64,000 nucleotides of DNA from Paeniglutamicibacter quisquiliarum (GTDB taxonomy: Bacteria; Actinomycetota; Actinomycetes; Actinomycetales; Micrococcaceae), in NCBI RefSeq assembly GCF_019084045.1, contig NZ_JAHRED010000009.1, forward strand, positions 62,001-126,000, written 5' to 3'. Both the position numbers and the translations under genes were made by a program. The stretch's first letter is position 1, and each line of letters opens with the position of its first letter. Positions 225 to 12,130 of the stretch are shown piece after piece. The notes beneath the pieces were generated by a model. It made no database searches, was not told the DNA's origin, and was given only the letters and a program-made list of their open reading frames with translations.

Positions 225-623
225 CTACGCGGTGCCCGCCGCGGCATCGACAGGCGTGAAATAGACCTTGCGCAGGGGCTCGGTGACGGTCCAGCTGGTC
301 TTCATTCCGGCCGCCAGGCGCATGACGGTGCCGGGAACCAGGTCCGCGGTCCGCGCTGGATGGCCGTCGAACGGCTCGATGACCACGGTGCCGTGCCCGG
401 CGGTGACCACGAAGACCTCCTCCGCCTCCACGTCGTACATCGAACCGACGCCCATTTCCCAGATGCCGAACGCGGTCCCTGCCAGCGTGCCCAGCGGCAC
501 CGTGGCGGTCGTGGTGGATGCGGTGGCGGCCAGGTCCTCCGAAACGGGTTCGTGGACCACGGGCACCCGGTTGGCGCGCAGTGCCTGGCCGCCGCGCAGC
601 TGCGGGAATTCCCCGGCGCTCAC
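225..623 (-). CDS. Cupin-fold protein (EutQ/ureidoglycine aminohydrolase-like cupin)
   Basis: A 132-residue protein with one cupin barrel, roughly residues 50-125. The segment around EEVFVVTAGHG and the later PGTVMRLAAGMKTSW resemble the Cupin_3 (DUF861) family. The usual HxH metal motif is missing, so a metal-dependent activity is doubtful. The GTG start overlaps the stop of the upstream FAD oxidase gene in a GTGA arrangement, implying translational coupling and a shared role. Cupins of this size often accompany amine or amino acid oxidases in actinobacteria, but the exact function is unknown. It is the last gene of the three-gene operon. Confidence 0.85.
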   Translation of the reverse strand: MSAGEFPQLRGGQALRANRVPVVHEPVSEDLAATASTTTATVPLGTLAGTAFGIWEMGVGSMYDVEAEEVFVVTAGHGTVVIEPFDGHPARTADLVPGTVMRLAAGMKTSWTVTEPLRKVYFTPVDAAAGTA

Positions 624-2086
624 GAGTCGAACCCCATGCCCACGGCGTCCATGGCCTTCAGGAACGGGCCGCGCCTGCCTTCGTTGCGGTCGGCCTTGGC
701 CAGCGCGTGGGTCATCAGCCTCACGCCCATCCAGGCCGCCGGCTCCGGAGGGAAGGGCAACGGCTTCTTCCTGACCAATTCCAGCTCGGTGAGCTCGGTC
801 TTTTGCCCCGAGAGGAGCTCAAGCATGACGCGGGCCCCGAATCTGCTGGCCCCCACGCCCAGGCCGGTGAATCCGGCGCAGTAGGCGACCCTGCCGCCGT
901 GGGAGGTGTCGAAGAAGGCGAAGAACCGGCTGCAGGTGTCGATGGCCCCGCCCCAGGCGTGGGAGAATCCGATCCCCTCCAGCTGCGGGAAGGTACCCAG
1001 GAAATGTGCGGCCAGCTTCCGGAAGGTGGCATCGTGCCTGTCGTGCCCGGGCTTGATCCTCCGGCCGTAGTGGTAGACCGCGTCGTAGCCGCCATAGAGG
1101 ATCCGCCGGCCGCCGTTCTCGTCGACGGTGGGGCGGGCGTAGTGGAAGCGGTTGTTCATGTCGGCCAGGCCTACGTTTTCCTCCCATCCGATCGCCGCAC
1201 GCTGGGAACCGGTGAGCGGCTCGGTCATCAGGGCGTAGTCGTAGACCGGGATGGTGTGCAGCCGGTGGCGCTTGAGCAGCGACGGGAACGCGTTGGTGGC
1301 CAGCGCGACGCGCCGGGCGCTGATGTCCCCGGCACCGGTGCGCACCCGGATCGCGGCGTCCGTGGAGGTGAGCTCGACGCCCCGGGTGTGTTCGAAGATC
1401 TTCACGCCGAGTTCGAGGCACACCCGGCGCAGCCCCCAGGCAAGCTTGGCCGGGTGCACCAGGACGGTGGAGTCCTCCTCCAGGATTCCTCCCTCGAAGA
1501 GCGGGGAGTCGATGTGGGCGCGCACCTGCCCGGCGTCCAGGACAACGACTTCCGGGTTGCCGGCCGCTTCCTCCTCCAGCCACGGCACCTGGTGCTTCTC
1601 GGTGGCGACATTCAGCACGCCGCCGGTCATCAGGTCGCAGTCGATGCCGTACCTGTGGATGGTCGCGATGATGCCGGCAAGGTTTTCGGCGCCGAGTTCG
1701 GTGAGCCTGGCGTTTTCCCGGGGCAGGTGCCGCTCGCCGTTGGATTCGCCGTGGACCAGGGAAGCCTCGCAGAACCCGCCGTTGCGGCCGGAGGCGGCCC
1801 AGCCGACGGTCTCGGCCTCGATGAGCGCGACCTCGCGGTCTGGATCGGCCTCCTTGGCCAACAATGCCGTCCACAGTCCGGTGTAGCCGCCACCGACCAC
1901 CAACAGGTCGGTGGAGAGATTGCCTTCCAGCGCGGGAAGGGCGGCGGGGCGGTCGGGATGGCACAGCCAGTAGGGGGCATAGGTGGTGCCGCTGAGCGAG
2001 GCGTCGATGGTGGACCCGGCGACCGAGGCCTCGATGCGGTCAAAGGAGACGGGGGTGCGGTTGGACGTGGCAGGAATGCTGCTCAT
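620..2086 (-). CDS. FAD-dependent amine/amino acid oxidase (DadA/PuuB-like)
   Basis: A 488-residue flavoenzyme of the D-amino-acid oxidase/glycine oxidase superfamily. The dinucleotide-binding motif GGGYTG is at residues 65-70, followed by the GWAASGRNGGF block at 95-105 typical of gamma-glutamylputrescine oxidase-type proteins, and a C-terminal FAD segment with GFTGLGVG. It probably oxidises a primary or secondary amine to an aldehyde or imine with release of hydrogen peroxide; the substrate is not readable. The ATG at 2086 was chosen because AAGGA lies 6 bases upstream; an in-frame ATG 15 bases earlier has no better site. It sits between an amidohydrolase and a cupin gene, suggesting that a hydrolysed amide or carbamate yields the amine oxidised here. 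Confidence 0.9.
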   Translation of the reverse strand: MSSIPATSNRTPVSFDRIEASVAGSTIDASLSGTTYAPYWLCHPDRPAALPALEGNLSTDLLVVGGGYTGLWTALLAKEADPDREVALIEAETVGWAASGRNGGFCEASLVHGESNGERHLPRENARLTELGAENLAGIIATIHRYGIDCDLMTGGVLNVATEKHQVPWLEEEAAGNPEVVVLDAGQVRAHIDSPLFEGGILEEDSTVLVHPAKLAWGLRRVCLELGVKIFEHTRGVELTSTDAAIRVRTGAGDISARRVALATNAFPSLLKRHRLHTIPVYDYALMTEPLTGSQRAAIGWEENVGLADMNNRFHYARPTVDENGGRRILYGGYDAVYHYGRRIKPGHDRHDATFRKLAAHFLGTFPQLEGIGFSHAWGGAIDTCSRFFAFFDTSHGGRVAYCAGFTGLGVGASRFGARVMLELLSGQKTELTELELVRKKPLPFPPEPAAWMGVRLMTHALAKADRNEGRRGPFLKAMDAVGMGFDS

Positions 2087-2168
2087 GGAGGTTCCTTGCA
2101 TGGAAGAAGAAGTGATCTTGGAGTGCTCTTGCAAAATGCGTGGGGGAAGCTGGAAGGGACCTGGGGCC

Positions 2169-3836
2169 CTAGACGCCGGCGGCGGCACGGGCAAAGACCG
2201 CGTGCCCGGCGGCGAGGGTGAGTTCCACCTCCACGCGGTGCAAGTCGGAGGAAGGGATGGAGAACGGATCTGCGTCCAACAGCACCAGGTCGGCCCGTGA
2301 CCCGGGACGGAGGCTGCCGCCCTCGGCGTCGCGGTTGACCCAGGCGCTGCCGGCCGTGTAGCCGCGCATGGCCTCCAGGACGGTGATGGCCTGTTCCGGG
2401 ACCAGCGGTGCGGCATCGGGGCGGTCCGGGGCGGTGCGGTTGACCGCAACGTGGATGGCCTCGAACGGGTTGGGTGTGGAGACAGGCCAGTCCGATCCCA
2501 TCACCAGGTGCGCCCCGGCGTCGATGAGGGAGCGGAAGGGGTACTGCCAGCCGGCGCGTTCCTGGCCCAGGATCGGGTTGGTCAGCTCCACCATTTGGTC
2601 GTCGTTGCAGGCCCAGAGCGCCTGGGCGTTGATGCTCAGGCCCAGGGCCCCGAACCGTGCCACGTCGTCGGGGTGGATGACCTGCAGGTGGGCGAGGTGG
2701 TGGCGCCCGCCGGTGGCGCCGTTGGCCGCGCGGGCTGCCTCGAGTGCATCCAGTCCCATGCGGACGGCCCCGTCGCCGATGACGTGCAGGTGGAGGTCGA
2801 ATCCCGCGGCGTCCAGCGCCACGGCAACCGCGGAGAGCACCTCGGCGGAGAGGTAGCGCAGCCCGGTGTCGCCCGGTGAGCCGGGGGCGCAGTCGCAGGC
2901 ACGCAGGTAGGGCTCGAGCATGGCGGCGGTCCGGTTCTCGGCTACCCCGTCGACCATGATCTTCGCGGTCGTGGTGCGGAACCCGGCGGCGGCGTTTTCC
3001 TTCCGGCGGGCCAGGAAGTCCTGGACCAGGGCGGGAACTGACTCGAGGGTGGTCTCGCGGGGGACCCAGAGCGCGCCCGCGGCCTGCCCGGTGAGCAGGC
3101 CCCGGGCCTGCAGCTCGCGGTAGATCCCGGAGGCATCGGTGTATCCGGCGTAGTTGCCCAGGATCGCCTCCTGCCATCCGGTGATCCCGAAGGAGTGCAG
3201 GTGCCGCTGGCCGGCCAGCAGCCCCGCGCGCAGGGTGGCCGCCTCGGGGACGGGGATCAGGGAGTTCACCAGGTCCATGGCGCCCTCGTGCAGGGTTCCG
3301 GTGGGGTTTCCCTGCGCGTCCCGTTCGATGCGCCCGTCGGGCGGGTCGGGGGTGGCTGCGGCGATTCCTGCCAGCCGGAGCGCCGCGGTGTTGACCCAGG
3401 CGCCGTGGTGGTCGCGGTTGATCAGGTAGGTGGGGCTCGCGCCGGTGATTGGGTCCAGCATTGCGGCGGTGGGGGTGCCGCCGGGGAAATCGCTCATGGT
3501 CCAGCCGCCGCCGGTGAGCCAGCCGCCGGTGCTCGAGGATGCGTAGGCGGCGATGGCTGCCAGGGTTTCGTTCGGACCCTCGGCGCCGGTGAGGTCGCAG
3601 GCCAGGGACTCCACGCCGCCCATCAGGGCATGGACGTGGGCGTCGGTGAAACCGGGGGACAGCGCCCGGCCGGCCAGGGACACGTCGTGGTCCGGGTCCG
3701 GTAGTGCCGCGCGGACCTGCACTTCCGGGCCTGCCGCCAGGATCCGCCCGTCGCGCACCGCGACGGCGCTGCCCGGGTCCAGGAGTGCGTGGCCGTCGAA
3801 GATGGTGCCCGAGTGAAATAGCCAGGTCTCGCTCAC
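2169..3836 (-). CDS. Amidohydrolase family protein (YtcJ-like)
   Basis: A 555-residue metal-dependent hydrolase of the YtcJ/NfdA-like amidohydrolase_3 family. Visible metal-site elements are DAHVH (residues 65-69), a later HLHVIGDG histidine, HLAHLQVIHPDD, and the GSDWPVSTPNP aspartate near the C terminus. Members hydrolyse N-acyl, formamide or carbamate bonds. GTG at 3836 is preferred since GAAAGGG lies just upstream and the protein begins where family members begin; the frame itself stays open far upstream. It is the first gene of the operon reading leftward into the FAD oxidase and cupin genes. The predicted promoter is overlapped by an inverted repeat shared with the divergent TetR gene. 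Confidence 0.9.
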   Translation of the reverse strand: MSETWLFHSGTIFDGHALLDPGSAVAVRDGRILAAGPEVQVRAALPDPDHDVSLAGRALSPGFTDAHVHALMGGVESLACDLTGAEGPNETLAAIAAYASSSTGGWLTGGGWTMSDFPGGTPTAAMLDPITGASPTYLINRDHHGAWVNTAALRLAGIAAATPDPPDGRIERDAQGNPTGTLHEGAMDLVNSLIPVPEAATLRAGLLAGQRHLHSFGITGWQEAILGNYAGYTDASGIYRELQARGLLTGQAAGALWVPRETTLESVPALVQDFLARRKENAAAGFRTTTAKIMVDGVAENRTAAMLEPYLRACDCAPGSPGDTGLRYLSAEVLSAVAVALDAAGFDLHLHVIGDGAVRMGLDALEAARAANGATGGRHHLAHLQVIHPDDVARFGALGLSINAQALWACNDDQMVELTNPILGQERAGWQYPFRSLIDAGAHLVMGSDWPVSTPNPFEAIHVAVNRTAPDRPDAAPLVPEQAITVLEAMRGYTAGSAWVNRDAEGGSLRPGSRADLVLLDADPFSIPSSDLHRVEVELTLAAGHAVFARAAAGV

Positions 3837-3894
3837 GGATGCCCTTTCGGTGCGCGGTGCGCGGTTTGCCGCCGGATGAAGTGTGTTCCAGTTC

Positions 3895-3965: not shown

Positions 3966-4742
3966 ATGGACACCAGGGATCCGGCACGCGGGCCGGTGAA
4001 TGCCGCGCCGGCCGTGCGCCGACGCGCCCGGGGACTGGGCCGGGACGTCATCCTGGAAGCCTGCCTGAGACTGGCCGGGGGCCCCGAGGCCGACGCGCTG
4101 TCCTTCCGCAAGATCGGCAGGGAACTCGGCGCCGACCCCACCGCGCTGTACCGCCACTTCGCCGACAAGGACGAACTGCTGCTGGCGCTCGCCGACCGCG
4201 TGATCGGCAAGGGCATGGAGGGCTACCGACCGAGCCCGCGCTGGGACGAGTCGCTGCGGGACCTGATGTTGCGGACCCGGGCGGGCTTCCTGCGCTATCC
4301 GCAGGTCGCCGCGCTGGCGGCCCTGCGCGTGACGCGGCAGGAGGGCGAGCTGAAGTTCATCGAGGCGATGCTTCGCGCGCTGGAGGAAGCCGGGTTCGAA
4401 CGGTCCGAGGCCGTGCTGGTCTACCGGGCCTGCGGCGATTTCATGCTGGCCTGGACCGGGTTCAGCGCCGGCCTGGCGCTGCTGGGCGAGAAATCGGCGC
4501 AGGACGATGCGGCGTGGGTGCGCAGCTATGCCCGGGTCCCGGAGCGGGATTACCCGTTGGCGGTGTCCTCGGTGGCGATGCTGGCGGCGGTGCAGGACGA
4601 GGACAACCACCGCTTCGCCCTCGACCTGCTGTTGGCGGGGATTGCCGCACGGCTCGAGCACCGAGTAATAAGCCGCGACGGCGGGGTCCCCGGAGAGAAC
4701 CCGGAAGCCCGCCCCCGCGGCAACGCGGCTGCCGAAGGCTAG
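3966..4742 (+). CDS. TetR family transcriptional regulator
   Basis: A 258-residue regulator. The N-terminal DNA-binding domain has its helix-turn-helix at about residues 46-67 (LSFRKIGRELGADPTALYRHF), a strong TetR signature, followed by an all-helical ligand domain of the TetR_C type. The first 25 residues form a basic extension. It is divergent from the amidohydrolase/FAD oxidase/cupin operon, with a perfect 15-base dyad in between, so it probably represses that operon and is relieved by a pathway amine or amide. Its TAG stop shares the bases CTAG with the stop of the convergent membrane protein gene. The ligand cannot be predicted. Confidence 0.9.
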   Translation: MDTRDPARGPVNAAPAVRRRARGLGRDVILEACLRLAGGPEADALSFRKIGRELGADPTALYRHFADKDELLLALADRVIGKGMEGYRPSPRWDESLRDLMLRTRAGFLRYPQVAALAALRVTRQEGELKFIEAMLRALEEAGFERSEAVLVYRACGDFMLAWTGFSAGLALLGEKSAQDDAAWVRSYARVPERDYPLAVSSVAMLAAVQDEDNHRFALDLLLAGIAARLEHRVISRDGGVPGENPEARPRGNAAAEG

Positions 4743-5218
4743 CTGCGCGGTCCCTTCCCTGCAGCGGGGTGTGGGGCGGCGAGCCGCAGGCCGATCCCGC
4801 ACAGCATCACCAGCACCAGCTCGGCCGCGGCGACGGCGAGCATCGCCCCGGCTCCGGCGTTCGCTGATGCCACTGCGGAATCGCCGCCGTGCCGGTGCCC
4901 GTGGACTCCCAGCGCCATGAAGGTGTGCGCCAGGGCCATGAGGGCGGACATGGCCAGCAGCTCGAGAAGGGCCGCCGGGTTTCCCCAGGCCCGGTGCGCG
5001 CACTTGAAGCACAGCAGCACCATGGCACCGAGGACGGCGCCCGCCCACGGTCCGTGGGGGAACGCGACCATGACCCAAACGTGCACCAGGCCCAGGCCCG
5101 CCGCAAGGACGGCGACGGCCCGCGCAAAGCCGGCTCCCGGACCGCGGCGGGCGCGCACCGGGGCGCCCGCGGCGATCGGCCGTGCGGGCCATGCGATAGC
5201 GGCCTGGGTGGTGGTCAT
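4739..5218 (-). CDS. Small membrane protein with CxxC and His-rich loop, linked to amine oxidase
   Basis: A 159-residue protein with about four hydrophobic helices (near 33-52, 58-72, 82-104 and 122-146). The second helix ends in Cys-Phe-Lys-Cys-Ala-His (70-75), and the loop after the third carries HGHRHGG (106-112), both plausible metal ligands. No family was recognised. The gene begins 11 bases after the copper amine oxidase stop and is probably cotranscribed with it. This suggests a role in copper delivery, cofactor maturation or amine handling, but that is inference from position and residues. ATG at 5218 is the natural start next to the oxidase; its ribosome site is weak. Confidence 0.8.
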   Translation of the reverse strand: MTTTQAAIAWPARPIAAGAPVRARRGPGAGFARAVAVLAAGLGLVHVWVMVAFPHGPWAGAVLGAMVLLCFKCAHRAWGNPAALLELLAMSALMALAHTFMALGVHGHRHGGDSAVASANAGAGAMLAVAAAELVLVMLCGIGLRLAAPHPAAGKGPRS

Positions 5219-5228
5219 GGCATTTGCC

Positions 5229-7145
5229 CTAGGAGTGGCAGGACTTGCCGGTGGCCGGCGCCGGGACATCCAGGACGGGCGAGCGGTCGAAGAAGCCCTC
5301 GGGACGCAGTTTGAAGCCCACGGTGTCCACCGGCATGATGGGCCAGTCCTCCGGGCGCGGGAAGTGCGTGAGCCCGAAGGTGTGCCAGAGGACCAGGTCC
5401 TCGCCGTCGATGTTGCGGTCGGCCTTGACCCATTCGGGCAGCCCGGCGCCCCCGGCATGCTGGTTCACGAAGTCGCCGGTCGGGTAGCGCTGGTCCTCGG
5501 TTGCCGGGGTGACCCACAGGGCCTTGGAGGCAAAGGTGGCGCGGCGGTGGATCGAGGATCCCTCGTCGGCCAGCAGGGTGGGGTTTCCCTGCGGGTGCAG
5601 CTTGTAGCCCACCGGATGGCCCAAACGGTTTTTCGATTCCGGGTTGGAGATGACCCAGGTGCGTCCGGCGGAGTTGTCCGCGTCGCGGATCGCCTCGGAC
5701 TCGCGGGCCAGCACGGTGCGCTTGCGGGAGAACGCGTTGCCGCGCAGGTTCTCCGGTCCGGTCGAGACCCGCACCACGTCCTCCTCCTCGACGCGACCGG
5801 GGCCGCCGTCCAGGGCGAAGTCCAGCCGGGCACCGAAGAGGTGCTGGTGGTAGGGGGCGCCGAGGCCCGGGGCCAGTTCGGAGGCGTACGGTGTTTCCCC
5901 GTCCGGAAGTGCGCTGGTGAACACGATGCCCGTGGCCTTGGCCTCGAACTCGATGGTGCCGTCGAGGTAGAGGTACCAGTAGAAGCCGTAGTCGTAGTTG
6001 CCGATCGTGGTGAAGAAGGAAATCACCAGGCGGCGGTTGCGGCGGGTGTAGTTGATGCCGCTCCACAGATCCGAGTGCTTGGCCAGGATCGAATAGTCTT
6101 CCTCGTGCATGCAGATGCCGTTGCGGATGGTGCGGGCCTCGCCGCGCGCGTTGGAGACGACGGGGGAGATGTAGTGGATCTCGCCCAGGCAGTCGCAGCC
6201 CAGTTCGAGCGAGTTGGCGAACTGTCCCACCAGGTATTCGCCGGTGTCGAAGTAGTTCTGCCAGCTGCGCACGGGGGACGGGTCGCCGTAGGGGACCACC
6301 ATCTCGGCAATGGAGGCGCGGTTGAGGATGCGCCGGGGCGCACCCTTGTCCTCGAAGGAAACGTTGTGCAGCACCAGGCCCTCGCGCACGTCGAAGCCCA
6401 CGTCCAGGCTCCATTTCTCCCATTCGACGTGGTTGCCGCCGGTGACGTCGAAACTCACGCCCTCCGGCTGGGTGATGGAGATCGGCTTCTGCGTGGTGCG
6501 CAGCGGGCCGGTCAATTCGGGGTCGGTGTAGTTGCCGTGCTCGGCCGGAATCGGGACGACGCCCAGGTCGATGACCGTATCCACGCTGCGGTTTCCCACG
6601 TCCACGTAGCCGACGAGTCCGTCGACCGGGTGGGCCCAGGCCGAGTCCTCCGGGTGGTCCTGCACGAAGGCCAGCCCGCGCAGGATCCGGCGGCCCGATT
6701 CCTCCGGGTACTCGAACACACCTGCAGAGAGCGGGGCGACGCGCACCTTCTCCACGTCGAGGTTTCGCTTGGCCAGGGCCTCCAGCCAGCGCGGGTCCTG
6801 TGCCAGCAACTGCTCGACGACCTCGAACTCCTCCTCCAGCACCGGCAGCTCGCCGCTGGTGGCGGTGTCCAGCTCGATGACGCTTTCCACCTCGCCGCGG
6901 GTCACGGAAACCACGACGTCCTTGGGGCGGTTGCCGTCGACATCGAGGAGGAAGATGCGGAAGCGGCGATCGGTCTCCGTCGCGTCCCGTCGTGGATCCT
7001 CGAGTCCCAGGTAGGCCACGCGGGCCGATTCCGGGAAGTGGCCGTTTTCGGCCAGGATGGTGCGCACCTGTGCGATTTCCGCTTCGGTGGCAAGGGCATA
7101 GGCGCCGAGGCGGGTGTCGTTGTCGATGGCGTTGCTGGGGTTCAT
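5229..7145 (-). CDS. Copper/TPQ-dependent primary amine oxidase
   Basis: A 638-residue amine oxidase converting primary amines (phenylethylamine, histamine or tyramine type) to aldehydes with ammonia and peroxide. The TPQ precursor tyrosine is Tyr384 in the Thr-Ile-Gly-Asn-Tyr-Asp context, the catalytic base is Asp300 (YFDTGEY), and copper histidines are His433 and His435 (YHQHLFG) with a third in [10 protein letters not shown]. These lie about two residues from the well-known Arthrobacter globiformis enzyme (Tyr382, Asp298, His431/433/592), which has the same length. No signal peptide is seen, so it is cytoplasmic. ATG at 7145 has AAAGGG upstream. It is divergent from a TetR gene with a strong dyad between them. 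Confidence 0.96.
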
Positions 7146-7239: not shown

Positions 7240-7323
7240 CCGTGTTTGTCGGGCATGGCAAGGGGTCGTCCCCGGGCGGTGCGCCGTGCGCCAGCGGGTG
7301 GATGGATCCGTAGGATGGGTGGC

Positions 7324-7917
7324 ATGCCAAAGATTGTTGATCATGACGCCCGCCGCCTTGAGCTTGTCGAGGTCACCTGGAGGGTCATTGCACACCGCGG
7401 CTTTGACGGGGTGACCCTGCGCGACGTGGCGGCCGAGGCCGGCTTTGCCAACGGGGCGTTGAAGCCGTACTTTCCCACGCGGGCCAGCTTGGTCCGCGCA
7501 ACCTTTACCCACGTCTTCGGCCGCACCAATGCCCGGGTCGAATCCTCCGTCCAGGGTCTGGCCGGGCTGGATGCCCTTCGTGCATTTGCGCTGGAGGTCT
7601 TGCCCCTGGATGAGGATCGTCTCGACGAGGCCAGGGTCGTGATCCCGTTTTGGCAGGCCGCCATCCACGATTCCGGATTCGCTGCACTTAACGACGAGGC
7701 CATGCTCCAGTGGCGTCAATGGATCAACGGGTGGCTTGCGCAAGCGCGGAGCAAGGGCTCGCTGCGCGCGGGAGTTGTTGGCGAGGTCGCGGCGGAATCG
7801 CTGCTCACGTTCCTGTTGGGCGCCCAGGTCGCTGCAGTGCTGGATGCGGGGTTCAATGACCCGGCGCAACTGCGCGCCCAGTTGGACCAACATCTTTCAC
7901 TGCTGAAGGCGGGCTGA
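7324..7917 (+). CDS. TetR/BetI-like transcriptional regulator
   Basis: A 197-residue TetR-family repressor. The helix-turn-helix is at about residues 31-51 ([20 protein letters not shown]), followed by a TetR_C_6/BetI-like helical domain. ATG at 7324 was chosen because the protein then starts one helix before the HTH as in BetI; an upstream ATG at 7246 would lie inside the operator-promoter region and add an atypical leader. It is divergent from the copper amine oxidase across a perfect 24-base dyad and is the likely repressor of the oxidase and perhaps of itself. The inducer may be the amine or aldehyde. Confidence 0.9.
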
Positions 7918-8069
7918 CCCTGCACCTGGATTTAAAACCTACAGTCAGAGAAAAAACGTGACTTTGGGGGCTGTTGCGCGTACATTGACTGGAATGTGAT
8001 GTCGTTCACTTCCCTTGGAGCCGTTTATGCCGAGGGACGTCACCGCAATTGGGGAAAGGTCTCTCGCAC

Positions 8070-8999
8070 ATGTACCAGATGCAACACGTTGATTCCTTCG
8101 AAGCCTGGAAGTCGCTCGTGTCCAGTGCCTTCGTTCCGCTGCATTCGGAACCGGTGCGTGCGGGATCCTTTGCCGGCAGCATCGCCGGCAGCCAATTCGG
8201 CTCTGTGGGCGTCATGCAGGTCGAGGCCACTGCCCACGCGGTGCGCCGCACAGAAAACCTGCTGGCCGCAGGCGACGCGCCGCACTTCAAGCTCAACCTG
8301 CAGTTCAGTGGGCATGGAATCCTGCTGCAGGACGGTCGGGAAACCCTGCTGCGGCCCGGCGAACTGGCCATCTACGACACGCAGCGCCCCTACACGCTGA
8401 TGTTCGAGGAGGACTTCAAGACCCTCGTCCTCATGTTTCCCCAGCACCAGCTGGGACTGCCCGTGGCCCAAATCCGGGAGATGACGGCCACTGCCATCGG
8501 AACAGAACATCCCCTGGGTCGGGCGGTCACGCCATTCCTGGGGCAACTGGCGGGCCTGCTTCCGCAGCTTCGGGATCCCGTGGGGCATCGGCTGGCCGCC
8601 AATGCCATTGACCTGTTGGGCACCTTGCTCGCGGCCGAACTCCACGACCACGACGACTCGGCAGCCGACGGTCATCACCGACAGCTCCTGGCAATACAGG
8701 CCTACATCAACGAGCATCTCGCCGATCCCGAATTGTGCCCGGGATCCATTGCCGAGTCCCATTTCGTCTCCTTGCGCAGCCTGCACAAGATTTTCGCCGA
8801 GTCGGGACACACCGTCGCCGAATGGATTCGCACCCGAAGGCTCGAGCAATGCCGACGAGACCTGGGAGATTCCCTTCAACGCCACGTCCCCGTGGGAGTG
8901 GTTGGCTCCCGCTGGGGTTTTCCCGATGCAGCGCATTTCAGCAGGGTCTTTCGCGTGGCGTACGGGCTCTCGCCCTCGGCGTTTAGGGACCAAGCCTAA
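8070..8999 (+). CDS. AraC family regulator (FeaR/NphR-like)
   Basis: A 309-residue regulator with an AraC-binding-like N-terminal domain (about residues 30-180, including the cupin-like segment RPGELAIYDTQRPYTLMF) and two C-terminal helix-turn-helix units ending in the AraC signature GFPDAAHFSRVFRVAYGLSPSAFR. This architecture matches FeaR, the activator of tynA (amine oxidase) and feaB (phenylacetaldehyde dehydrogenase) in enterobacteria. Here it stands between an amine oxidase and a permease/aldehyde dehydrogenase pair, which supports the same type of role. ATG at 8070 follows GGGGAAAGG; a TTG 21 bases earlier is also possible. Confidence 0.88.
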   Translation: MYQMQHVDSFEAWKSLVSSAFVPLHSEPVRAGSFAGSIAGSQFGSVGVMQVEATAHAVRRTENLLAAGDAPHFKLNLQFSGHGILLQDGRETLLRPGELAIYDTQRPYTLMFEEDFKTLVLMFPQHQLGLPVAQIREMTATAIGTEHPLGRAVTPFLGQLAGLLPQLRDPVGHRLAANAIDLLGTLLAAELHDHDDSAADGHHRQLLAIQAYINEHLADPELCPGSIAESHFVSLRSLHKIFAESGHTVAEWIRTRRLEQCRRDLGDSLQRHVPVGVVGSRWGFPDAAHFSRVFRVAYGLSPSAFRDQA

Positions 9000-9134: not shown

Positions 9135-10613
9135 ATGGCAGCATCCATCGAATCACAAATTACCGAGGCCCCGGGCCTGGGCAAACGCACGCTCGGGGTG
9201 CCCGCACTGATCTTCATGATCATTGCCGCATCAGCGCCACTGACCGTGGTGGCAGGCGGGGTCACCAGCGACTATGCCGTGAGCGGGGTGCTCGGGGTCC
9301 CGCTGTCATTCCTGGTGCTCGGTGTGGTGTTGCTGGTCTTTGCCGTGGGGTACACGGCCATGAGTCGGCACGTGCAGAACGCAGGCGCCTTCTACGCCTA
9401 CGTGGCCCGGGGCCTGGGCAAGCCCGCCGGAATCGGCGCCTCGTGGGTCGCACTGATCAGCTACAACGCCATGCAGATCGGCATCTACGGACTTTTCGGC
9501 TTCGCGTTGTCCTCCTTCCTGGCCGGATCGTTCGGGCTGTCCGCCTCGTGGTGGCTCTGCGCCCTGGCCGGCTGGGTGCTGGTGGGCATCTTCGGGGTGA
9601 GCCGGGTCGATCTCTCGGCCAAGGTGCTGGGCGTCATCGTCGCCTGCGAGTTCCTCGTCGTCGTGGTCTACGACGTGCTGGCGCTGAAGGTGGCGCCCGA
9701 GGGCATCTCGGGGGCCTCCCTTGAGCCGGGCAACCTCTTCACCGCCGGGGTCGGCGCGGCTCTCTCCTTCAGCATTGCCGGATTCATGGGTTTCGAATCC
9801 GGGGCCATCTACGGCGAAGAAGTCAAGGACCCGGCACGGACCCCGCGCCGGGCCACGCTCATCGCCGTGGCCATCATCGCCGTTTTCTACGCCTTCTCCT
9901 CCTGGTCGATGGCCGTGGGCGAAGGCCATACCAAGGTCATTGACGCCTCACGCGAAATGGGGCCGGACCTCGTGTTCGCGTTCCTCGCCGGGCACACCCC
10001 GGGATGGTTCGTCGACCTGGGCAACCTGCTGTTTATCACCAGCCTGCTCGCCGCGCTGATCGCGTTCCACAACGTGGTGGCCCGCTACCTGTTCTCCCTG
10101 GGACGCGAAGGTGTCATGCCCGCGGCGCTGGGCAGGACCAACGCCCGGACCCATGCCCCGGTCGCCGGCTCGCTGACCCAGTCCGTCCTTGCCCTGCTGG
10201 TGTTGCTGGTCTTCACCGTGGCGGGGGCCGGACAGGATGCCATGTTCCCGGTGCTCACGTTGTTCACCTGGCTGACCAACACCGGCGCCTTCGGGCTGGT
10301 CATGCTCATGACGCTGACCTCCTTCGCCGTCATCGGATACTTCCGCGCCGAGCCGCACGGGCTCGGCAGGTGGACCGCCCTCGTGGCGCCGCTGCTGGCC
10401 GGCCTTGCCCTGGCCGCCCTCTTTGCCGCGATCGTGGCCAACTTCGACGTGCTGATCGGTTCGGAGGAGGCAGGCGTGCTCGGCTGGCTGCTGCCGGCCC
10501 TGGTCGTCGTCCCGGGCGTCTTGGGCTGCCTGTGGGGCATGCGGCTTCGCCGGACGCGGCCCGGGATCTACGCACGCATCGGACGCGGCGGGGACACGGA
10601 CCAAGGCGCATAG
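9135..10613 (+). CDS. APC superfamily amino acid/amine permease
   Basis: A 492-residue integral membrane protein with about twelve hydrophobic segments. It contains the APC features of the first helix (MIIAASAPLTVVAGG) and GFESGAIYGEEVKDPARTPRRA near residue 220, the conserved helix 6 to loop 6 motif of amino acid-polyamine-organocation carriers. It likely imports the amine substrate of the neighbouring oxidase by proton or substrate symport. A strong AAGGAGG precedes the ATG. It is followed after 80 bases by the aldehyde dehydrogenase gene, probably in the same transcript, and follows the AraC regulator in the same direction. Confidence 0.92.
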   Translation: MAASIESQITEAPGLGKRTLGVPALIFMIIAASAPLTVVAGGVTSDYAVSGVLGVPLSFLVLGVVLLVFAVGYTAMSRHVQNAGAFYAYVARGLGKPAGIGASWVALISYNAMQIGIYGLFGFALSSFLAGSFGLSASWWLCALAGWVLVGIFGVSRVDLSAKVLGVIVACEFLVVVVYDVLALKVAPEGISGASLEPGNLFTAGVGAALSFSIAGFMGFESGAIYGEEVKDPARTPRRATLIAVAIIAVFYAFSSWSMAVGEGHTKVIDASREMGPDLVFAFLAGHTPGWFVDLGNLLFITSLLAALIAFHNVVARYLFSLGREGVMPAALGRTNARTHAPVAGSLTQSVLALLVLLVFTVAGAGQDAMFPVLTLFTWLTNTGAFGLVMLMTLTSFAVIGYFRAEPHGLGRWTALVAPLLAGLALAALFAAIVANFDVLIGSEEAGVLGWLLPALVVVPGVLGCLWGMRLRRTRPGIYARIGRGGDTDQGA

Positions 10614-10693: not shown

Positions 10694-12130
10694 ATGGGTA
10701 CCGACACCACAACAATTGCCAGCTACGCCACCGCGGACGAGCTGCTTGCCGCGATCCAGCCGGCCACCGGGGGACGCGAAATCCTCGACCCGGCCACCGG
10801 CGGGCCGGTGGGCCGCGCACCCGAGCACGAGGTCGCGGACCTCGAGGCCGCCATCGCCGCGGCCCACGCGGCACAACCGGAATGGGACGCGCTGGGCCAC
10901 GCGGCACGCCGCGCCCTGCTGAACCGGGCCGCCGACGCCATCGAGGCAAGCGCCGAGGCGCTGGCCCAGCTGCTCTCGCGCGAGCAGGGCAAGCCGCTCA
11001 ACGGCCCGAACGCCCGCTTCGAGGTCGGGGGCGCGGCGGCCTGGCTGCGCGCCGCAGCCGCGTTCGACCTCGAGGCCGAGGTGCTCGTCGACGACGGAAC
11101 CACCTACGCGGAGATGCACTACCGCCCCTTCGGCGTGGTCGGTGCCATCGGCCCGTGGAACTGGCCGATGATGATCTCGGTCTGGCAGCTGGCCCCGGCC
11201 CTGCGCATGGGCAACACCGTGGTGATGAAGCCCAGTGAATACACCCCGCTGAGTGTGCTGGCCCTGGGCCACGTCATCAATCAGGTGCTCCCGTCCGGCG
11301 TGCTGCACGTGGTCGCCGGCGGCCGCGACGTCGGCCAGCTGCTGAGCACCCATAAGGACATCGACAAGGTTATGTTCACCGGATCCACCGCCACCGGGAA
11401 GGCCATCATCCGGTCCTCGGCCGACACCGTGAAGCGCCTGACCCTTGAACTGGGCGGCAACGACGCCGGCATCGTGCTGCCCGACGTGGACCCCAAGGCC
11501 ATTGCCGAGAACCTGTTCTGGGGCGCCTTCATCAACACCGGCCAGACCTGCGCCGCGCTCAAGCGCCTCTACGTGCACAAGGACATCTACGAGGAGGTCT
11601 GCCAGGCGTTGACCGAGGTCGCGAGGAACATGCCGATGGGCGTTGGGCTGGACGAGGCCAACGTGCTGGGCCCGTTGCAGAACAAGGCCCAGTACGACAT
11701 CGTCGCCAACCTGGTCCGCCAGGCCACCGACTCCGGCGCGCGCGTGCTGATCGGGGCGAACCCGCAGGCGGAGCAGCCGGGCTACTTCTACCCGAGCACG
11801 CTGGTCGCCGACATCGCCACCGACAACCCCCTGGTCGTCGAGGAGCAGTTCGGCCCGGTCCTGCCGATCGTCAAGGTCGACTCGATCGAGCAGGCGGTCC
11901 AGCTGGCCAACGCCCTGGACGTCGGGCTGGGCGCCTCGGTGTGGTCCGCCGACCGCGCCGCGGCGCGCGAGGTGGCGGCACGCCTGCAGGCCGGCACCGT
12001 GTGGATCAACAGCCACGGCGGCGTGGATCCGCGGATCCCGTTTGGCGGTGCCAAGTCCTCGGGTTACGGCGTCGAATTCGGCGTTGACGGGCTCAAGGCC
12101 CTGGGCCAGCCACAGGTGATCAACGGCTAG
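10694..12130 (+). CDS. NAD(P)-dependent aldehyde dehydrogenase
   Basis: A 478-residue ALDH-superfamily enzyme oxidising an aldehyde to its acid. The catalytic cysteine is Cys286 (NTGQTCAALKR), the general base Glu252 in ELGGND, and the oxyanion asparagine Asn156 in GPWNWP; Lys179 in VMKPSE binds the cofactor. Motifs are complete. The gene follows the APC permease with AGGAG 8 bases before ATG and ends at a strong terminator. In this setting it should oxidise the aldehyde made by the copper amine oxidase, such as phenylacetaldehyde or an aminoaldehyde. The residues do not fix the substrate. Confidence 0.95.
   Translation: MGTDTTTIASYATADELLAAIQPATGGREILDPATGGPVGRAPEHEVADLEAAIAAAHAAQPEWDALGHAARRALLNRAADAIEASAEALAQLLSREQGKPLNGPNARFEVGGAAAWLRAAAAFDLEAEVLVDDGTTYAEMHYRPFGVVGAIGPWNWPMMISVWQLAPALRMGNTVVMKPSEYTPLSVLALGHVINQVLPSGVLHVVAGGRDVGQLLSTHKDIDKVMFTGSTATGKAIIRSSADTVKRLTLELGGNDAGIVLPDVDPKAIAENLFWGAFINTGQTCAALKRLYVHKDIYEEVCQALTEVARNMPMGVGLDEANVLGPLQNKAQYDIVANLVRQATDSGARVLIGANPQAEQPGYFYPSTLVADIATDNPLVVEEQFGPVLPIVKVDSIEQAVQLANALDVGLGASVWSADRAAAREVAARLQAGTVWINSHGGVDPRIPFGGAKSSGYGVEFGVDGLKALGQPQVING

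Follow-up and report, generated by a model that had tools for sequence, protein, structure and literature searches.

Bacteria keep copper out of the cytosol. How, then, does a copper enzyme that carries no export signal obtain its metal? The question is raised by a pair of genes in Paeniglutamicibacter quisquiliarum, one for a copper amine oxidase (AO) and one for a small membrane protein (SM), within the stretch of 64,000 nucleotides analysed here (the window, to which all positions refer). According to the accessible part of a review, bacteria have hardly any cuproenzymes in the cytosol, and amine oxidases are counted as periplasmic (PMC7558416). A need for copper supply at AO follows because the bacterial cytosol is nearly devoid of cuproenzymes, yet these oxidases have no signal peptide. 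For oxidases of the type of the phenylethylamine oxidase of Arthrobacter globiformis (AGAO), which also lack one, the origin of the copper thus still calls for an explanation, much studied though the model enzyme is, and we found no bacterial protein that has been named for the delivery of copper to a cytoplasmic AO.

AO (positions 5229 to 7145, minus strand) is the first gene of the pair. It carries the Cu_amine_oxid domain (PF01179, E 5.7e-152) and matches the NCBIfam primary-amine oxidase model PRK11504 with 849 bits (cut-off 651). The NYDY motif, which we take to be the topaquinone (TPQ) site, and an HxH pair (here HQH) with a third His, presumably the copper ligands, are both present; these assignments were made from the sequence using known AO signatures. 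The closest relative with a solved structure is AGAO. By eye, the N-terminus has no signal peptide, and none of the 123 listed AO N-termini resembles one (a crude hydrophobicity check together with inspection by eye).

SM lies downstream of AO at positions 4739 to 5218 of the same strand, as the preliminary description had it, and encodes a four-helix membrane protein of 159 amino acids with conserved Cys, His and Met residues, a putative copper import or hand-over protein. Its ATG is at 5216-5218 and the AO stop codon at 5229-5231, leaving a gap of 10 bases and not the 11 first reported. The two genes are probably carried on the same mRNA. A TetR-type regulator gene (positions 3966-4742) converges on SM, the frames overlapping by a few bases at their stops.

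The neighbourhood of the pair is a normal amine catabolic cluster. On the plus strand are found a TetR-type regulator gene divergent from AO (7246-7917), an AraC-type regulator of the amine cluster (8049-8999), an amino acid/amine permease of the APC type (9135-10613) and an aldehyde dehydrogenase for the next catabolic step (10703-12130, start approximate). Genes for an FAD-dependent oxidoreductase (DAO) and an Amidohydro_3 protein (623-3839, minus strand) lie beside this cluster.

SM is a real gene, which evolves faster than AO yet remains under purifying selection: the median dN/dS is 0.28 (43 usable of 45 pairs, from 10 genomes/loci of the genus), compared with 0.075 for AO (45 of 45 pairs, same 10 loci). 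Of the 15 genomes in the genus, 13 have it, directly behind AO in every locus whose contig covers both genes. In one genome (G011) SM is split across contig ends; in another (G012, locus L007) the frame opens immediately after the AO stop without the usual ATG, and its N-terminal part is unlike that of its relatives. As a single sequence SM matches nothing in Pfam or NCBIfam. With 11 and then 55 members as queries, these databases return only scattered weak names, and a sequence comparison with the PDB gives chance matches (best E 0.19). An AlphaFold model built with five sequences is weak (pLDDT 60.5, pTM 0.34) and places helices at residues 29-52, 57-76, 81-105 and 115-147.

The residues that are retained in this nameless protein are chiefly potential metal ligands. 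A set of 73 members, collected without any motif filter, has 113 core columns, 17 of which are Cys, His or Met. Nine columns are conserved in at least 90% of members (H46, M66, C70, C73, M94, H98, H108, L127 and E133), and seven of these nine are Cys, His or Met (hypergeometric 1.5e-5). In a second alignment, A4 (68 rows, 19-55% identical to SM), all eight of the most conserved columns are of this type: H46, M66, C70, C73, M94, H98, H108 and H110 (4.8e-8). A4 was drawn from 116 of 117 distinct sequences with a CxxC pair required, so that Cys invariance in it is partly by choice; the filter removed a single sequence. This sequence (L161) is SM-like (E 2.8e-13) and lies behind an AO but has no CxxC pair, a possible exception to the motif.

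Helix 2 carries the run M66-x3-C70-x2-C73 (5000-5023) near its predicted cytoplasmic end, with C70 and C73 in 73 of 73 unfiltered members and M66 in 66. H46 in helix 1 (5081-5083) is found in 72, as are both M94 and H98 of the helix 3 run M90-x3-M94-x3-H98 (4925-4951), in which M90 occurs in 55. Two loops contribute further His residues: H55 (5054-5056; 59 of 73) in the PHG loop that joins helix 1 to helix 2, and residues 106-112, HGHRHGG (4883-4903), in which H108 is shared by 70 members and H110 by 64; both loops are predicted to lie outside. All of these positions are on the minus strand. The preliminary description had singled out a CxxC-Ala-His motif and the HGHRHGG loop as copper ligands and had held that poor conservation of their Cys and His would refute the idea. 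Both motifs are present (C70-F-K-C73-A74-H75 and H106-G-H-R-H-G-G112), and C70, C73, H108 and H110 are conserved, so that this refutation does not apply; H75, however, is His in only 11 of 73 members and falls outside the conserved set.

The distribution of charge indicates how these residues may be arranged. Lys plus Arg per sequence in A4 amount to 5.3 in the N-terminal part (a value that is too high in rows starting ahead of the real first residue), 0.1, 2.0 and 0.26 in loops 1 to 3 and 3.4 in the C-terminal part; the His loop, with its 0.26 Lys plus Arg, holds 3.0 His. This predicts that the two termini and loop 2 face the cytoplasm, that the PHG and His loops are exposed outside and that the CxxC pair sits at the inner face. 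From this charge pattern, the helices of the weak model and the conserved residues, we infer a ladder of ligands that begins outside with H108, H110 and H55, continues through the outer half with H46 and H98, has M94 and M66 midway and ends towards the inside with M90, C70 and C73.

If SM serves AO, the two should be inherited together, and co-occurrence across amine oxidase loci had been proposed as a check. We searched 295 genomes of the family, counting AO at E values up to 1e-30; here absence means not detected among the best candidates scored per genome (12 for SM, 4 for AO). AO is found in 156 genomes, leaving 139 without it. With a profile built from the genus only, SM occurs in 86 genomes and 20 of 32 genera; every one of these 86 also carries AO, and SM is detected in none of the 139 genomes without AO. 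This profile gave 90 SM hits, of which 79 are within 600 bp of an AO (76 behind it on the same strand, and 3 divergent and adjacent), 7 sit 2.7-69 kb from an AO and 4 are on contigs for which no AO is listed. Among 55 AO loci (up to 6 kb on each side) taken from 53 of the 70 AO genomes in which the genus profile had found no SM, 29 hold a more divergent SM, L161 included.

The broader A4 profile raises the count to 125 SM genomes, and here too the check came out in favour of the pairing: all 125 carry AO, and SM is again detected in none of the 139 genomes without it. The Fisher value of 6e-54 is overstated since the genomes are related. A4 was built partly from AO neighbourhoods; the genus-only profile shows the same pattern. 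One round of iteration, from hits below 1e-6, was kept, and a further round, which drifted from 144 to 273 hits, was discarded. At least 12 genera hold both species with AO and SM and species with neither (26 of the 139 AO-less genomes having a genus given). SM is not indispensable, because it is undetected in 31 of the 156 AO genomes. In ten AO loci without SM, no replacement gene was seen by eye beside AO.

In a sample of the order, SM is found in 21 of 297 genomes; 20 of these hits are below 1e-9, all with AO, ten being new and ten already counted in the family sample. The remaining hit (G366, 9e-4) is weak and not among the AO matches, and was not counted as SM. AO is present in 57 of 287 genomes at this level, many without a detected SM. 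The six hits among 246 genomes of the phylum sample comprise two family members, one clear case (G639, 1e-19, with AO) and three weak hits (G666, G752 and G758; 3e-5 to 5e-4), which were not counted; the G758 protein has no CxxC and lies beside DUF305 and DUF302 genes. In one genus outside the family (seven loci, L227, L228 and L230-L234, AO 73-74% identical), no SM was found within about 5 kb, and likewise none near AO in another such genus (L229).

Plasmids add further pairs. A plasmid search with the SM sequence itself gave no match, and relatives were found there only via AO. SM is directly behind AO in a Rhodococcus pyridinivorans plasmid (E 5e-26), and another Rhodococcus plasmid has the order AO-permease-SM (3e-18). 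In Paenarthrobacter aurescens pTC2 an SM frame (L276:4476-4922, E 4e-39) lies behind AO but is missing from the incomplete gene table. In most cases SM is directly behind AO, and in other loci it is divergent, in front of AO; gene order therefore varies while linkage has been kept. As far as comparison of genomes can tell, the link between SM and AO is strong. In a genus with 8-Mb genomes, SM copies occur that are not beside AO (L193, L197, L198, L202, L203 and L205); a DUF305 gene about 2 kb from SM in one of these (L197) may point to a wider role.

The oxidase itself has a feature that fits a copper supply at the membrane. Its C-terminus (5232-5261, minus strand) forms a Cys/His tail, putatively copper-receiving, which was recognized by comparison of AO C-termini. 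From 228 loci with AO hits (some covering the same place twice), 224 tails were obtained. The four loci dropped are L155, which misses the pattern yet ends in GHCCESENEAAPCCES, L240, with an odd end and an AO without a Cys/His tail, and the incomplete L251 and L066. The 151 distinct C-termini that fit the pattern all end in a short tail of variable sequence, in which a Cys/His pair and one or more Cys are found (for example, HCH in 38, CC in 49 and CxC in 39). Compared across these C-termini, the tail is a fast-changing element, and it occurs in AO loci both with and without SM. In one genus (g7; L140, L147, L148, L154, L159 and L208) AO is extended at its N-terminus as well, by a stretch rich in His and Cys (such as HDHACH or HEHACH), and SM, where found, is several kb from AO and not directly behind it.

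AGAO carries the tail too, as SHCH. In the accessible part of a study of this enzyme, the tail is described as having a free Cys636, and a Cys636 to Ser form made in E. coli was studied copper-bound (PMC8550341). Since this form is copper-bound, both the tail Cys and SM are dispensable when copper is ample. The E. coli oxidase TynA, periplasmic according to the part of the source available (PMC4640556), ends in GALKKDK and has no Cys/His tail. Seven plasmid AOs from outside the class Actinomycetes, chosen from 90 records, have a tail Cys in six cases (Gemmobacter, Paraburkholderia, Acinetobacter, Rhizobium, Paenibacillus and Rubrobacter), and none in the archaeon Salinigranum.

What occupies the position behind AO in these other lineages bears on the function of SM. 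In three proteobacterial genera (L270, L271 and L272) it is a protein of the Caa3_CtaG family. The gene directly behind AO in Gemmobacter and in Acinetobacter johnsonii is annotated as a cytochrome c oxidase assembly protein and scores above the Pfam cut-off for Caa3_CtaG (1.6e-8 and 2.2e-8, respectively); in Paraburkholderia a frame absent from the gene table matches at 2.2e-12. The Acinetobacter protein as a plasmid query found 11 records, 10 of them beside AO by the coordinates given (seven of these 10 are Acinetobacter plasmids with identical match values). The Gemmobacter protein found 13, with 9 beside AO; for the other four (two Marinobacter, Acuticoccus and a small Acinetobacter plasmid) there is no AO among the matches listed. 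Caa3_CtaG is not specific to AO. No homology between SM and Caa3_CtaG was found (hhalign probability 0.1%, from an alignment of only two CtaG proteins), and the family would represent a second, unrelated solution that converged with SM. In Paenibacillus a frame for a 121-residue membrane protein with the motif HAHHM (L273:4457-4819) is directly behind AO. Pfam has no match for it, and when a handful of frames were compared with the SM profile it reached a weak 19.5 bits; it is possibly a third kind of partner, or else a remote SM relative that has no CxxC pair. In the remaining three of the seven loci (Rhizobium, Rubrobacter and Salinigranum), no copper-type membrane gene lies directly behind AO.

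We consider it rather likely that SM represents a new small four-helix membrane family whose role is to provide cytoplasmic copper amine oxidases with their metal. A dedicated membrane copper-delivery protein, as the preliminary description had suggested, is supported by ligand conservation, by co-occurrence and by Caa3_CtaG in the same position elsewhere; our inference from this combination is that the metal carried is copper and travels inward, that the AO tail contacts SM and that the enzyme gains from it. In such a scheme, the outside His loop (H108, H110) and H55 would catch copper, which would pass H46 and H98, then step over M94/M66 and M90/C70, and would arrive at C73, at the cytoplasmic end of helix 2. 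It would there be handed to the C-terminal tail of the AO encoded just upstream and move from the tail to the active site, where topaquinone would then form by itself with O2. SM probably matters when copper is scarce, because 31 AO genomes and the L227 group manage without a detected or nearby SM and the AGAO tail-Cys mutant is copper-bound. Counting against this reading, besides these cases, SM has no evident energy source or known transporter fold, the tail is also found where SM is not, the 8-Mb genus has SM copies away from AO, and the Rhizobium, Rubrobacter and Salinigranum loci show no copper-type membrane gene directly behind AO.

The chief rival is a membrane-bound metallation factor that imports nothing. 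In this case SM would receive copper from a cytosolic donor, or its CxxC pair would reduce the metal, and it would dock the AO tail at the membrane. The predicted position of CxxC at the inner face, the tail itself and the naming of Caa3_CtaG as an assembly factor rather than a transporter are all consistent with this. However, the ligand set spans the membrane and includes an outside His loop that a purely cytoplasmic hand-over would not need, and we regard this explanation as unlikely, if the best of the alternatives.

Considerably less probable is that SM is an exporter, a safety valve for copper lost from AO. The same ligand chemistry would serve export, and the AO reaction yields H2O2. 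Copper efflux, however, is a general need, and SM is paired with one enzyme and is detected in none of the 139 AO-less genomes of the family. We give an equally small chance to a channel for amine, aldehyde, ammonia or H2O2, by which SM would serve the pathway in some other way. Its location in a catabolic cluster with a permease and an aldehyde dehydrogenase would suit a channel, as would one Acinetobacter locus with an ammonium transporter after CtaG; but the cluster already has its permease, the conserved residues are mainly soft metal ligands, and other lineages place a cytochrome oxidase assembly family in the same position. It is very improbable that SM is a small cytochrome of the b type, such as a cupric reductase, with heme held by the near-invariant H46 and H98 of helices 1 and 3, as this would give no reason for the His loop, the two Met and the pair of invariant Cys.

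Dedicated copper supply to a single cuproenzyme is already known as a kind. The MelC1 caddie of tyrosinase is a partner gene product that loads one oxidase with copper; unlike SM, it is presumably not an integral membrane protein and is unrelated. MerC and MerT are small mercury importers with few helices and Cys pairs in a helix, and their metal differs from the copper proposed for SM. Among 55 SM members there is no MerC match in Pfam at E 0.1, and MerT appears once in NCBIfam at E 0.031, which is chance level. Caa3_CtaG (PF09678) is a membrane assembly factor of a cuproenzyme, and matches 0 of the 55 members at E 0.1.

CcoA/CalT is closest in role, being a bacterial inner-membrane copper importer for one cuproenzyme, as SM would be. 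In the parts of the sources available, its helices carry Met and His spaced i,i+4, as MxxxM and HxxxM (PMC6362234; PMC8406296). M90xxxM94xxxH98 and M66xxxC70 of SM are similar to these but not identical. CcoA is an MFS protein of 12 helices, in contrast to the four predicted for SM by the weak model, and no MFS family is among the 16 weak Pfam names obtained with the 55 members. Eukaryotic Ctr1, a small copper importer, has a filter of the form MX3M, and its C-terminus bears an HCH motif for which a relay of copper is proposed in the accessible part of the source (PMC6437178). That motif is on the transporter itself, whereas here HCH is on the tail of the enzyme (38 of the 151 tails). Ctr1 is a trimer of three-helix subunits with MxxxM in helix 2, whereas SM has four helices and MxxxCxxC in helix 2; the Ctr profile matches none of the 55 members. 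What is new is a nameless four-helix family that would serve a cytoplasmic enzyme with a matching tail. Among the open PMC papers that our searches listed, none describes, by its title or the opening of its abstract, SM or a copper role for the AO tail.

We advance more tentatively, at a little under even chances, a general two-part route for cytoplasmic AOs. A Cu(I) importer in the membrane, whose gene neighbours that of the oxidase, would work with a fast-changing Cys/His tail of the enzyme, and this tail would take the copper at the membrane before any could enter the cytosol in free form. The importer would be SM in Actinomycetota, the unrelated Caa3_CtaG in some Proteobacteria and perhaps the small His/Met protein in Paenibacillus. 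If this is true, the paired importer and enzyme tail would explain the copper source of AGAO-type oxidases. It would also add a family of bacterial copper importers unrelated to the systems compared here (CcoA/CalT, Ctr1, MerC/MerT, Caa3_CtaG and MelC1), and could matter for the production of active amine oxidases.
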